64,000 bases of DNA from assembly GCF_027595985.1 (NCBI RefSeq), contig NC_073313.1, forward strand, positions 80,003,994 through 80,067,993. The letters are read 5' to 3'. Origin of the DNA: Sorex araneus. Its lineage: Eukaryota; Chordata; Mammalia; Eulipotyphla; Soricidae. Made by a program: the position numbers and the translations under genes. Position 1 is the stretch's first letter, and every line of letters starts with the position of its first letter. This document shows, one piece after another, positions 19,120 through 47,054 of this stretch. A model generated the notes under the pieces. The model was not told the DNA's origin. It did no database searches and saw only the letters and a list, made by a program, of their open reading frames with translations.

Positions 19120-20819
19120 ATGACGGGTAATTCCTGAGTCTACTTGAGTGCCCAAAGGTTGTCCAGATTTCAAAGAACACATTTCTGGAGAAGCACGGAA
19201 ATATTTGCAAAGGAATTTTTTGGATAAGATTGACACTTGAATTGGTGGTTTTTTAAGGACCTTTGCTATCCCAAATATAGGTGGGCATTATCCAATCCAA
19301 TGAGGCCCCAGATAATAAAATCAGTCAGAGAAGGAATTCCTTCCTCCCCCTACCCCATCCCCACCAGCATTTTCCTGTCTCAGCCTTAGCCTTGAAACCC
19401 AATCTTATCTTGCCCTCACGTTGGAATGTAAACAAGTGGCCCACCTGCTTCTTAGTCCTCTAGACTGAAACTGAATGACACCTCCAAATTGCCTGACTCC
19501 TAGGTTCCAGTTAGGAGATCAAAGAAATTCTCATATCCTCCACAGGTGGACAAATCCAATTCCATATAAAATTTCCTTTCCTAACAGGATAATCACTGTA
19601 AAATAAAGAAACTGGATTACCCAGCATCCTGCCTTATAGCTTTAAACTCTGGTACTTATGTTCAGGTCACAACTGGACTTAGTTCTATGCCATGATGATG
19701 CAGCAGAATCAGATTGGGATTTTACAGTCAGTCACTTTGGGTATTTTGCTTTTTGTTTTGGGGCAATACCCAGCACTGTTCGGGGCTTTTCCCTGGCACT
19801 CCGCTCTGGAATGACTCCTTAAAGTGCTCAGGGGATCATATGGGGTGGAGTGATCAAAGCCAGGACAGCCGTATGTAATGTAAGCACCTTACGCTCCATA
19901 CCATCTTACCAGTTAATATATTTGGGACAGTTTCTGTGATCACCACTAAATAAAGGGCAAGTAAACTGTGTCATAGATTTTTTCATAAGTTTTTGCTTCC
20001 ATAACGTTTTTTCCTTTCCTGGAATATTATACTATTAGGATTGCTGTCCAACTGAAAAGCAGTGTCCGAATGTTTTATTATAGATGTGAGCTCTGGGTTC
20101 TTTTTTGAAATCTCTTGCACTTGCATTTTATTTGGTGTTTGAATTGAAGAGTCAAGAAAATATGTAAATTATCATTTTCACTAAATCTTTGGGCTCTATT
20201 AGTAAATATATATCAGACAGAGTATTAGTAAATGCAATTTCTCTCAGGTTAAAGACCTGAGTGATAAATTTTTGTGACTTGATATGCAGGGGGGTTGCTC
20301 TCATTTAAATGAATATGGTTTCAAAAAGCAAATGGTGCCCACTCTCCTCTTCTCCTCCATTAAGTGTTCAGATGTGGCACCTGAGATGATGTGCTGGAGT
20401 CCAGTTAGCAACAATATGAGATCTTTTTCTTTCAGTGTCTGGTTTCTCCTATCTTTAACCAACCTCAGTGGAGGCAAATCTCACCATGTTTCCAAACACA
20501 AAACATAGTTAACTACCGATGAATCAGAACCAAAGTAACCAAAGTAACTTTTAAAACTTTTATATCAAGGCACTGCAATTTACAAAGTTATTCAGGTATG
20601 AGTTTCAGTTAGGGAATGTTATGATAACCAATATCATCACAAAAAACTTCTTTAAATAGATGATTCCACACTACTGCAGATAAAAATAAGGACCTGAGGA
20701 TGGAGAGACAAAGAAAATCAATTGGTTAGTTTTTTAAAAATTGTTTAATTGGCATGCATGCACAAATGACAGTATGAACAGTACTTCTGAAGTACTTCTC
20801 CCTCTCCCCACCTGGCTGA
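19120..20819. other. Mostly unique sequence with one old SINE
   Basis: 19120-19640 is the right end of copy A. 19748-19912 is a badly decayed minus-strand SINE (tggggcaatacccagcactg). 20245-20263 has a 7-bp inverted repeat, CTCAGGT/ACCTGAG. 20160-20250 weakly resembles 40170-40245. No credible coding exon. Confidence 0.55.
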
Positions 20820-21205
20820 AGCGTCATTAAGAAAGAACAAAAATCTTCTAATTTGCAGCATTATAGATGGAACTACAGGATATGAGGCTAAGTAAAGTCA
20901 GTCATTAAAAAAAGGATAGATACAGAATGATCTCTGTCATGTGTGGAACTTAAACACGGCAAGGCAGAAATAAAAATGACAAAGGCAACAAACCTGAAAA
21001 ACTGATCCCCAAGATTAAGTTGGTGGAATATATGAAGAGAGGAGTGTTGGGGTACTTAGGGACTGAAGGAGGTGGATACATTGTTGATGGATGTGGTATT
21101 GGAATCATGTGTACAAGAAATAATCATTAACAGTATTGTTAATACTGATATACTGTTATACTGATATACTGTAAAGCACAGAATATCAATGAAACAGTTT
21201 TTAAA
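20820..21205 (+). mobile_element. Old LINE-1 3' end
   Basis: Matches the end of ORF2 and the 3' UTR of a diverged subfamily (gaactacaggatatgaggct; agtcagtcattaaa; gaatgatctctgtcatgtgt). Its right edge abuts the residual 3' UTR of the CK2 retrogene and may have replaced the rest of it. Confidence 0.65.
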
Positions 21206-21216
21206 TAAAAATTTTG

Positions 21217-21271
21217 AAGAGAGCTGACTTCCCTACCTACCTCTACCTGAGCATCACGAGACAAAGTGTGG
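21217..21271 (-). other. Residual CSNK2A1-like 3' UTR
   Basis: Just after the stop, 'tttgtctcgtgatgctcagg' and following bases resemble the start of the human CSNK2A1 3' UTR as I remember it. The likeness fades near 21217, so most of the 3' UTR is lost. No AATAAA was seen nearby on this strand. Confidence 0.5.
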
Positions 21272-22852
21272 TTACTCCTGCGCATCGGATGAAGATGGAG
21301 CAGGATTCTCAGGGGCGGTGGGATCATCAATCACTGTTGAACCAGTCATGGATCCAGAGCGTGAAGGGAAAGATGCTAAAGTCTCTGGCAGAGTGGCATC
21401 AGCAGGCAGAGTGGCATCAGTGGGCAGAGTGGTATCAGTTGGCAGAGTGGTGTCAGTAGGCAGAGTGGCATCAGTGGGCAGAGTGACATCAGCGAGCAGA
21501 GTGGTGTCAGTTGGCAGAGTGGTATCAGTAGGCAGAGTGGTGTCAATGGGCAGAGTGGTATCAGCGGGCAGAGTGGCATCAGCAGGCAAAGTGGCATCAG
21601 TGAGCAGAGTGGCATCAGTGAGCAGAGTGGAATCAGCGAGCAGAGTGGTATCAGTTGGCAAAGTGGCGTCAGCAGGCAGAGTGGCATTAGCGGGCAGAGT
21701 GATGTCAGCGAGCAGAGTGGTGTCAGTTGGCAGAGTGGTGTCACTGGGCAGAGTGGTGTCAGCGGGCAGGGTGACATCAGCGGGCAGAGTGGTGTCAGTA
21801 GTTGCAGGCATACTGCTTTCCAGACCACTAGTTTCACCAAGTCCTTGAGCCTGGTCACTTACAATCGTTGAGAAATAGGGGTGTACCATGGCTTCTCTGG
21901 CGGTAAGCCTTAACTGAGGGTCATATTGTAGCACCCTATCCAGGAAATCAAAGGCTTCTGGGCTGACAAGGTGATCGTTTTCATTGCGGACAAAGTGATG
22001 CCAACGAATACGGGAATGCTTGCCCACGATTACTTGAAGATGTTTATCTATCTTTATCTTGTATTTCTTAATGTACTCATAAAAACGGCTTGTTCCTAGA
22101 ATGGTGACTATCTTCGCCAACTGATCATTATCATCACGACCACGAAAAAACGGCTCCCTGTGAAAGATCATGCTTGCCAGGATACACCCCAGGCTCCACA
22201 TGTCCAAACTATAATCATACATCTCATAATCGACCAGCAGCTCAGGGCCTTTGAAATATCTTGTAACAACTTGAGTACTATACTCCTCACCAGGATGGTA
22301 AAATTCCGACAATCCCCAGTCAATTATCCATAGCTTTCTTTTCTCATGATCAATCATGATGTTTTCAGGTTTGAGATCTCGGTGCATAATTCCCATGCTA
22401 TGACAGTAATCCAGAGCTTTCAGAGTCTCATAGGTGTAAAACCGTACATCATAGTCTGTTAATTTCTGGTACAACTTCTTGTGGTGAGTGTTGTTTATAT
22501 ATTCAAAAACCAAGCCAGGGGTTCCTGACTCATGATTTTTCACAACGTCTGTCAAAGTTATGATGTTAGGACCACCTCGCAAATTCTCCAAAATCTTTAT
22601 TTCACGCTTGACTTTCTCCTCTAGGATTGGGCTGAGGAGTTTAACAACAAACTTTTCATTTGTTGAGAGTTTGACAGCTTCAAATACTTCACTATAGCTT
22701 CCGTGGCCAATTCTTTTTCCCAGATCGTAGTCATCTAGATTCCCCCAGTGCACCACATGTGACTCATAATCCCAGTATTTTCTGGGTTGATGTGCATTAA
22801 CATCTGCATAAACTCTAGCCCTGCTTGACAAGGGTAGGGACACATCAGACAT
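21272..22852 (-). CDS. Casein kinase 2 alpha-like retrogene with hexapeptide-repeat tail
   Basis: A single open frame of 526 aa without introns, closest to CSNK2A1. CK2 alpha is the acidophilic Ser/Thr kinase subunit of the CK2 holoenzyme. Seen: glycine loop GHGSYSEV (49-56), ATP lysine K71, HRDLKPEN (catalytic D159), the CK2-type DWG (D178) and RYFKGPELL (198-206), so catalysis looks possible. Residues 1-351 are the kinase core, about two thirds identical to human by eye. Differences: the basic run human K74-K77 is LEEK here, human K49 is S52 and human R191 is Q194, all in substrate binding; HRDVKPHN became HRDLKPEN. Residues 352-489 are 23 hexapeptide repeats and 490-526 match the CK2alpha C-terminus. 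The start is the first ATG (22850-22852); only a TTG lies further upstream in frame. Leader and 3' UTR remnants show mRNA origin. Transcription is unproven; a recent pseudogene that has not yet broken is the alternative. Confidence 0.88.
21386..21799 (-). repeat. 18-bp coding minisatellite, 23 units
   Basis: Encodes residues 352-489 of the CK2-like protein as [T/A/S]-D-[T/A/V]-T-L-[P/L] units, such as TDTTLP and ADATLP. No unit breaks the frame or introduces a stop. Because 18 is divisible by three, neighbouring frames are also open here on both strands; those are by-products, not genes. Thr-rich and acidic, probably disordered, possibly phosphorylated or O-glycosylated. Confidence 0.95.
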
Positions 22853-23143
22853 ATTGGTAGACAAAGATAAAGCTGATGGTTGCAGGTCTGTCCGTCACAG
22901 TGTTTAGACGCACTTTAGATCTTGCTTCAGACTTTTCTTCAGACTTGTTATCTCCTATAAGAAAAAAATGAGATAATCAACTCTTTAATATCTGATTTGC
23001 AGAATTAGTCTACTCTTTCACTGTATGTACTAATAATCATTAGGTGGCATTAAATCCCTAGCTGTGTCTTGTGGCCTGCTGAGTATTATCAGGTGGGACC
23101 CCTCTCTGTGGTAGAAGCTGCAGTGGATGCTGCTGCTCTCCCC
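22853..23143 (-). promoter_or_regulatory. CSNK2A1-like 5' leader, split by about 150 bp
   Basis: Next to the start codon, 22853-22944 resembles the human CSNK2A1 5' UTR (ctgaagaaaagtctgaagca; then aacactgtgac and cagctttatctttgtc). Going upstream it stops near a good splice-acceptor-like sequence, 'catttttttcttatag' (AG at 22955-22956). At 23106-23143 another piece resembles the more 5' UTR (gcagcttctaccacag). The interval 22955-23105 is either an insertion or a 5' UTR intron; no strong GT donor is visible at its upstream edge. Confidence 0.5.
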
Positions 23144-45869: not shown

Positions 45870-46779
45870 AAAAATATGTTCACAAAAAGTCACCTGTCTT
45901 CAGAAACTCTTGAGCTCATTTGCCAACGTGGTCTGGCATGGGCCTCACGCAATCACAAGCTAACGTCCGAGCTCACAAAGCTGTGCAGAGAAGCAATAAA
46001 GGAAAACCTCAAAGAAAGAAGAGTAGCAGTGTTGACCGATGTGGCAGAAGCCGAAAAAAGTATTCGCAACACCGCCTGTCCTTCACCAACTATAAGACCA
46101 AATTCCACAGGATGGATATGTTGTTCCCAGCATTCTGCCTTCCAAAATCTGACACACCATTTCTTTGGTAAAGATGCATACAGCACCTGGTCCAGACAAG
46201 ATCAGACCCGAACACCTGAAGAATCTGCCAGTACACTGGATCAGCTCTTCACATGCTACCTGTCTGAATGCAAAGTTCCATCTCAGTGAAAAACCAGCAG
46301 GACCATCCTGTGGTACAAGAAGAGAGACATCCACGACATTGGCAGCTATGGCCTGATCTGCCTCTTGTCCGTCATCTACAAGTTATTCACTCGAGTCATC
46401 CTGAATAGGATTGACAGAACACTAGACGAAGGACAACGATGCGAGCAAGCTGGTTTTCGAAAAGGATTCAGCACAATTGACCATATCTACAGGGTGACCA
46501 AGCTCATTGCGGTCTTGAGAGAGTTCAAAATACCGTTCTATATAACATTCATTGATTTAAAGAAAGCCTTTGATTCTGTTGAGACTGAAGCGGTCATCAA
46601 AGCCCTAGCCAAACAGGGCATTCACATTCAGTACATCAAGATCCTCCACAAACTAGTATTACGGATTCACTACAGGATCTCACCATTCTACAAAGAAGTG
46701 TTCATCGAAATAAAGAGAGGGGTTCTACAGAGCGACACCACTTCACCGAAACTCTTCAGTGCCACCCTCGAGAATGTCA
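45870..46779 (+). mobile_element. RTE-clade retrotransposon fragment, reverse transcriptase
   Basis: A non-LTR element unlike LINE-1. Frames give the pre-RT linker (SSETLELICQRG; LTSELTKLCREAIKENLKER), then TAPGPDKIRPEHLKNLP, LICLLSVIYKLFTRVILNRI, EQAGFRKGFSTIDHIYRVTK, the first catalytic-Asp motif FIDLKKAFDSVE, and a damaged GVRQGDTxSPKLF block (GVLQSDTTSPKLF). These are RTE-family reverse transcriptase motifs. Part of the linker is deleted, there are frameshifts near 46180 and 46300, and it is cut before the second catalytic motif. Inactive. Confidence 0.88.
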
Positions 46780-46842
46780 TGCATTTGCCTTGCGCACGGA
46801 TGACCAGGGTTCAGTTCTTACGTCCCTCTCAGAGAGCCCAAA
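46780..46842 (+). mobile_element. SINE scrap joined to the RTE fragment
   Basis: About 60 bp of the CTACAGTG-tailed SINE, from inside the tRNA part to the start of the body (gcatttgccttgcgcacgga; gtccctctcagagagccc). It follows the RTE coding sequence without a gap. Confidence 0.7.
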
Positions 46843-47054
46843 TTATATTTTGTATCTTTTTTGTTTTATCATTCATTTAATTTATTAGCTGTGGTAGCTC
46901 CACCCCTAGACTCAGGGTACAGGGTCACACCAGGAGATGCTCCTGAACCACAAGGCCACATTCATCTGAATGTACTAGGGTACATTGAAGTGTCCAGTAC
47001 TGAAGGAATATGAGGTCCTGATTTGTGCTTTTTTATCTTGGTTGACTTTTAGGG

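Follow-up and report, generated by a model that had tools for sequence, protein, structure and literature searches.

The excerpted text of PMC3359341 describes Drosophila Stellate and CK2-beta-tes as X-linked, multiplied and diverged genes for a CK2 subunit. As for the catalytic subunit, the products of CSNK2A3 and CSNK2A1 are reported to differ at four residues (excerpted text of PMC8817493), and CSNK2A1 itself appears, together with GAPDH, among the accelerated regions of the Soricidae node in an analysis of four shrew genomes (excerpted text of PMC11544316). No description of an X-linked multi-copy CK2 alpha family was found in the literature searched. Here, we analysed a stretch of 64,000 nt from Sorex araneus, hereafter the window (placed by genome search at C12:80003994-80067993), which contains an open reading frame (ORF) resembling CK2 alpha. 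The observations as a whole are best explained if this ORF belongs to an X-linked family that comprises at least 11 genes for protein kinases derived from CK2 alpha, a reading that we consider probable.

A full-length CK2 alpha copy in the window

The ORF runs from ATG to TAA on the minus strand (21272..22852; C12:80025265-80026845) and encodes 526 aa. A preliminary description of the window had reported a frame open over 1581 bp, and translation of the minus strand from 22852 to 21272 confirmed its exact coordinates, its 526 aa and the lack of internal stops. Residues 7-336 of human CK2 alpha could be matched without gaps to its kinase core (21836..22825, minus; Pfam Pkinase, 221 bits), and the best PDB matches of the ORF were CK2 alpha chains. 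In a gapped alignment with these human residues, 228 of 330 positions were identical and 102 changed, in agreement with the earlier estimate that about a third of core positions differ; an ungapped comparison gave 227/330, and residues 7-333 aligned gap-free. Over 321 comparable positions, human CK2 alpha has 249 residues in common with maize CK2 alpha and only 223 with the window copy, maize thus being nearer to human. Changes in the window copy affected 50 of the 229 positions at which human alpha, alpha prime and maize agree versus 48 of the 92 variable ones (Fisher p 2e-7). At the 42 sites that distinguish alpha from alpha prime, it matches alpha at 19, alpha prime at 6 and neither at 17, which points to a derivation from CSNK2A1 and not from CSNK2A2. 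Furthermore, the intronless structure proposed earlier held for the coding part of this CSNK2A1-derived ORF.

Relatives of the ORF in bacterial and archaeal genomes amounted to six remote bacterial kinases, and none was detected in the viral contigs scanned. An Rfam scan returned no match at gathering thresholds, and single-sequence structure prediction of the window copy yielded a pLDDT of 34 and no usable model. Elsewhere, fragments resembling LINE-1 reverse transcriptase or ORF1 were noticed by eye (46290-46880 on the plus strand, among other places), and the remainder of the 64,000 nt looks gene-poor.

Related copies on the X chromosome and their origin

The preliminary description had presented the ORF as a single CK2 alpha retrogene. 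We dropped this reading, as the genome search returned ten further intact intronless CK2 alpha copies on C12 outside the window, making the window copy one of at least 11. The search scores best candidates only, so that 11 is a lower bound; a second, different query returned the same 11 intact copies on C12. We refer to the window copy as W and to the other ten as F08-F17 (loci L042-L051). Nine of the 11 are located within about 1.6 Mb (C12:78.71-80.34 Mb), and F16 and F14 at 83.3 and 87.8 Mb. Their cores are 64-82% identical to human CK2 alpha, F13, F16 and F11 being the most parent-like (81-82%); nine cores are free of gaps, and those of F13 and F17 have a one-codon gap each. C12 also carries a dead copy and a fragment, near F14. 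Off C12, the matches among those scored were exons of the normal genes (C5 and C8) and more distant kinases, besides a copy on C2 that is broken.

HPRT1 and AGTR2 are X-linked in placental mammals. HPRT1 exons were located at C12:80.98-81.03 Mb and AGTR2 at 114.5 Mb on the same contig, which identifies C12 as carrying the X chromosome; the copy closest to HPRT1 is F17, about 0.65 Mb away. A second HPRT-like locus was seen at C9:55938652-56018114, with three exon-like matches (60-88% identity), one of which has a stop.

In the codon tree, W and F08 were grouped with a support of 100 and F10 joined them with 94; F15 was placed with 51 only. F11 and F12 are situated in an inverted repeat (L046 with L057, L058 with L045; C12:79935659-79944168 and 79962123-79970425). 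Identity between its two arms is about 88% across the gene but reaches 100% near the stop codon and stays there for at least 2.86 kb, a stretch that suggests recent conversion or duplication.

Several features are those of a processed retrogene, namely the intronless coding part of the window copy, its 3' UTR remnants and the poly(A)-site end preserved in four other copies. The last 31 residues and the stop of the window copy (21272..21367, minus) are homologous to the C-terminal tail of CSNK2A1 (67/96 nt and 11/31 aa against the human sequence), its stop codon standing at the place homologous to the CSNK2A1 stop. Two colinear pieces matching the human CSNK2A1 3' UTR follow, at 21218..21263 (minus; weak alone, p 0.018) and 20641..20831 (minus), with about 390 bp of other sequence between them. 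In F13, F14 and F16, 0.8-1 kb of the parent 3' UTR is recognisable, and the 3' homology of these copies and F17 stops at C5:115322066-115322078, just after the parent AATAAA. Beyond this end, F14, F16 and F17 have similar flanks (by eye).

On the other side of the coding part, a probable 5' untranslated leader (22853..22954, minus) aligns with other copies that match the readable 5' part of a parent exon; in BLAST against that exon, several other copies matched and the window leader did not. An AG downstream of a pyrimidine tract (22955..22956, minus), about 102 nt before the start and close to the parent exon edge, is aligned in all 11 copies and probably marks the 3' splice site of an intron in the 5' untranslated region. 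Past the 102-nt leader, every copy has upstream DNA in common with one or more of the others, in several pairs over 0.6-1.5 kb.

Most simply, the parental poly(A)-site ends and the flanks beyond the mRNA ends that copies have in common point to one retroposition followed by DNA duplication. The sequences show that a CSNK2A1 mRNA was retroposed and that the insert was then multiplied by DNA duplication on the X, and the 11 copies seem to descend from one such event. Independent retropositions are disfavoured, as DNA beyond the mRNA ends is common to copies.

We also compared the readable exons of the parent CSNK2A1 (C5) with the human sequence, leaving out the rest of the gene. They gave dN 0.000 and dS 0.393 over 254 codons, after codons 171, 208 and 242 at exon edges had been dropped as probable boundary misreadings, and one difference, P340A, was found outside the core. 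CSNK2A1 and GAPDH are retrocopy-prone genes. Given the dN of the readable parent, the acceleration signal published for CSNK2A1 in shrews may stem from X copies aligned to the parent, and the family may thereby explain that claim; in this case, the family would be placed in all Soricidae.

Constraint on reading frames and catalytic residues

All 11 copies have an ATG start and none has a stop or frameshift. In place of the inferred ancestral ATG, W, F08 and F15 have GTG or TTG, and all three start at an in-frame ATG located 9 nt further upstream; both ATGs occur in F09, and the other seven copies keep the ancestral one. When the human CDS was drifted neutrally to the same protein distance, 5.8-7.9 stops accumulated on average and no run stayed stop-free (0/1000 and 0/900 in two simulations), which excludes chance as the source of the open frame of the window copy. 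Its replacements were more conservative than neutral ones, with a mean BLOSUM62 score of 0.25 versus neutral means of -0.35 to -0.47 (s.d. 0.17-0.18). Likewise, Pfam Pkinase scores were 238 bits for human, 221 for the window copy and 208-226 for the ten paralogues, versus 98-145 for eight neutral decoys barred from stops.

The window copy and the parent differ with NG86 dN 0.165 and dS 0.773 (ratio 0.21; YN00 0.38), and the window copy and its nearest paralogue F08 with dN 0.164 and dS 0.391 (ratio 0.42; YN00 0.55). A dN/dS near 1, which the preliminary description had set against its own interpretation, proved the opposite of what we obtained: omega was 0.509 for W/F08/F10, and omega 1 was rejected with an LRT statistic of about 23.6 (three paralogues; kappa taken from a grid of five values). 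Lower values were obtained for F11/F12/F09 (0.215), F13/F17/F11 (0.269) and F14/F16/F13 (0.280), and omega was 0.352 for all 11 copies and 0.321 with both CSNK2A1 sequences added. Omega near 0.5 in the W clade is weak constraint, averaged over history.

Non-coding sequence was considered as well. In three copies, the 3' UTRs had 48-50 gap runs (lenient gap costs) compared with 0-1 codon in any core; their 3' UTR identity to the parent was only moderately lower than that of the CDS (0.77-0.78 versus 0.81-0.87), the gap counts differing far more. As a neutral yardstick, the flanks of W and F08 gave a distance of 0.23-0.25 (global alignment), below the dS of 0.39; taken at face value, this puts dN/neutral at about 0.7, a weaker constraint than dS suggests, although a gap-happy alignment probably lowers the flank distance. 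Nor does the flank evolve faster everywhere, with F15/W at 0.28 upstream and 0.31 in the CDS.

These values bear on whether the copies are relaxed, decaying retrocopies, with the window copy functional until recently and now drifting. Omega of up to about 0.5 in the W clade, and the dead copy and fragment on C12, would fit such decay, which we nevertheless judge quite improbable: omega 1 is rejected even with just three paralogues, all 11 frames are open, and a CSNK2A1 pseudogene on C2, which differs from the human sequence at about 12.5% of nucleotides, is full of stops and frame breaks, whereas the window core is open at 23%. The sequences indicate instead that purifying selection holds the proteins of the family, under which the start codon, reading frame and kinase core of the 11 copies have stayed intact, along with nearly all of their catalytic residues.

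Thirteen catalytic positions were unchanged in all 11 copies, as were the DWG and the regulatory spine (L85, L97, H154 and W176). This set leaves out two candidate positions judged doubtful picks, G46 (S in F14) and 280 (different from human in 7 of 11), both kept in W. In the window copy, K68, E81, D156, N161 and D175 are kept, consistent with the earlier statement that catalytic residues and the DWG persist (K68, D156, D175 and the W of DWG are window residues 71, 159, 178 and 179). Its catalytic loop reads HRDLKPEN in place of HRDVKPHN, HRDLKPEN being the usual form in other kinases. A catalysis-free scaffold, to which the fast-changing tails with repeats might be suited, is extremely unlikely given that the 13 positions and the spine are intact throughout the family of kinases. 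Activity may nevertheless be low in the window kinase. It carries F121H and R191Q; residue 121 belongs to the catalytic spine, and the human Okur-Chung allele R191Q leaves about 50% of the activity of human CK2 alpha (excerpted text of PMC9608649).

Substrate and partner surfaces, and comparison with known systems

We took K77 to act at P+3 and K49 to be a substrate-binding position. In the excerpted texts of PMC9608649 and PMC9014129, R80 and R155 form the P+3 anion site, H160 contacts P-3, R191, R195 and K198 serve P+1, and K74-R80 is the extended substrate-binding region. The preliminary description had stated that the lysines behind acid preference are changed, citing K49S, R191Q and LEEK for human K74-K77. 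These substitutions are all real (K74L, K75E and K76E, K77 kept), and the alteration of K49 and K74-76 stands, but the claim does not extend to the rest: K77, R80, R155 and K198 were unchanged in all 11 copies, and R195 is kept in W. Five of the six P+1 and P+3 residues (R191, R195, K198; K77, R80, R155) are thus retained in the window copy. It is changed also at H160, R47, D120 and K71, and its lysine-rich motif KKKKIKR has become LEEKVKR, which no longer matches the motif. KKKK was retained in one copy of 11 (F16), and F14 has KRKK.

The extended patch, identical in maize and human CK2 alpha, is among the most variable parts of the X-linked copies. Positions 47, 49, 71, 74-76, 120 and 160, of which 47, 71 and 120 were added after seeing the window copy, held 5.0 residue types on average compared with 2.1 for all 229 ultra-conserved positions (0/20000 permutations). 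With W excluded from the count, positions 49, 74-77 and 191 held 4.5 types versus 2.06 (P = 5e-5), and 74-77 with 160 gave P of 1.5e-4 or less. The contrast was less striking for all 12 acid-binding residues including invariant ones (P 0.004; 0.02 versus polar positions), and P+1 alone did not exceed the other ultra-conserved positions in variability (P 0.41). Furthermore, R47, D120 and H160 were changed jointly to H, H and E in W and F10; in human CK2 alpha with the loop collapsed, these three residues form bonds (excerpted text of PMC9608649). Both parts of the earlier argument, kept catalysis and altered substrate binding, are therefore present in sequence across the family (P = 5e-5), but the new specificity drawn from them was too strong. 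With the P+3 site and K198 unchanged in all 11 copies and R195 kept in W, it is more probable that extended recognition has shifted than that acidophily has been lost. Judged from these substitutions, core acidophily probably survives, and an altered extended recognition in the family is well supported.

The CK2-beta interface of the window copy combines kept residues (L41, F54, V67, V101 and V112) with changed ones (Q36L, I69L, D103N, P104H, V105E and R107G). The hot spots L41 and F54 were each kept in 10 of 11 copies (I in F08 and Y in F09, respectively), and D103 (6 types) and T108 (5), both in the CK2-beta loop, were among the most variable positions. With L41 and F54 kept, the window copy may simply join normal CK2. 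More generally, the copies could still be ordinary CK2-beta-binding alpha subunits whose only effect is on dosage, which they would increase or take over, in germ cells for instance; the changes in the patch would then be drift in a tolerant surface. Kept catalysis, the P+3 site and K198, the two hot spots and the 81-82% identity of F13, F16 and F11 to human all accord with such redundancy; a patch that is identical in maize and human yet so variable here does not, nor do tails that differ in length and in net charge, from -30 in the window copy to +56 in F16. Overall, we regard redundancy as rather unlikely.

The tail of the window copy is lengthened by an in-frame 18-bp tandem array (21387..21799, minus) of 23 hexapeptide units, (T/A)D(T/A)TL(P/L), which is indel-free throughout; F08 has one motif resembling the unit (by eye). 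The four [ST]P sites in the human CK2 alpha tail have no counterpart in the window copy. The 411-residue tail of F16 (L050:1975-4179, minus) is proline-rich with 24-bp repeats, unlike those of the other ten copies, and has 17 S/T-P-x-K/R motifs. On the reading of a distinct kinase family, the acidic repeat tail and the changed CK2-beta loop should give the window kinase partners of its own.

CK2 alpha barely changes from plants to mammals (249/321 positions, maize versus human), and the family offers 11 open natural variants that explore the substrate-binding surface with catalysis fixed. They constitute a ready-made mutational series for asking which residues make CK2 acidophilic, in which R191Q of the window copy is a natural counterpart of the human disease allele, and a case of an essential kinase escaping constraint after copying to the X.

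Compared with its parent CSNK2A1, the window copy retains the kinase core, the DWG, the HRD catalytic loop, the N-terminal segment, the P+3 acid-binding site and the stop position, but its coding part is intronless and X-linked, about 31% of the core is changed, a repeat tail has been added, and the extended basic patch, H160 and the SP/TP sites of the tail are lost. Human CSNK2A3 is likewise an intronless CK2 alpha copy, and is expressed, whereas the X-linked family has 11 diverged copies. Mammalian X-linked ampliconic families resemble it in having many copies in a short X interval and an inverted repeat that is 100% identical over part of its length (F11/F12), but most CK2 alpha copies here are well diverged. 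A CK2-beta expansion, that is, Stellate proper, was sought on C12 and gave no CK2-beta match. By analogy with Stellate, the window kinase would most likely act in the male germline, which is the weakest step of the explanation. We further propose, tentatively and as an unlikely extension, that X-Y conflict in the male germline drove repeated re-tuning of the patch and tails of active CK2 alpha paralogues, as a mammalian catalytic-subunit counterpart of Stellate. The two systems have X linkage, multiplication and divergence of CK2 subunit genes in common; Stellate concerns the beta subunit, with a known testis role and Y suppressor, whereas the family described here concerns the catalytic subunit.
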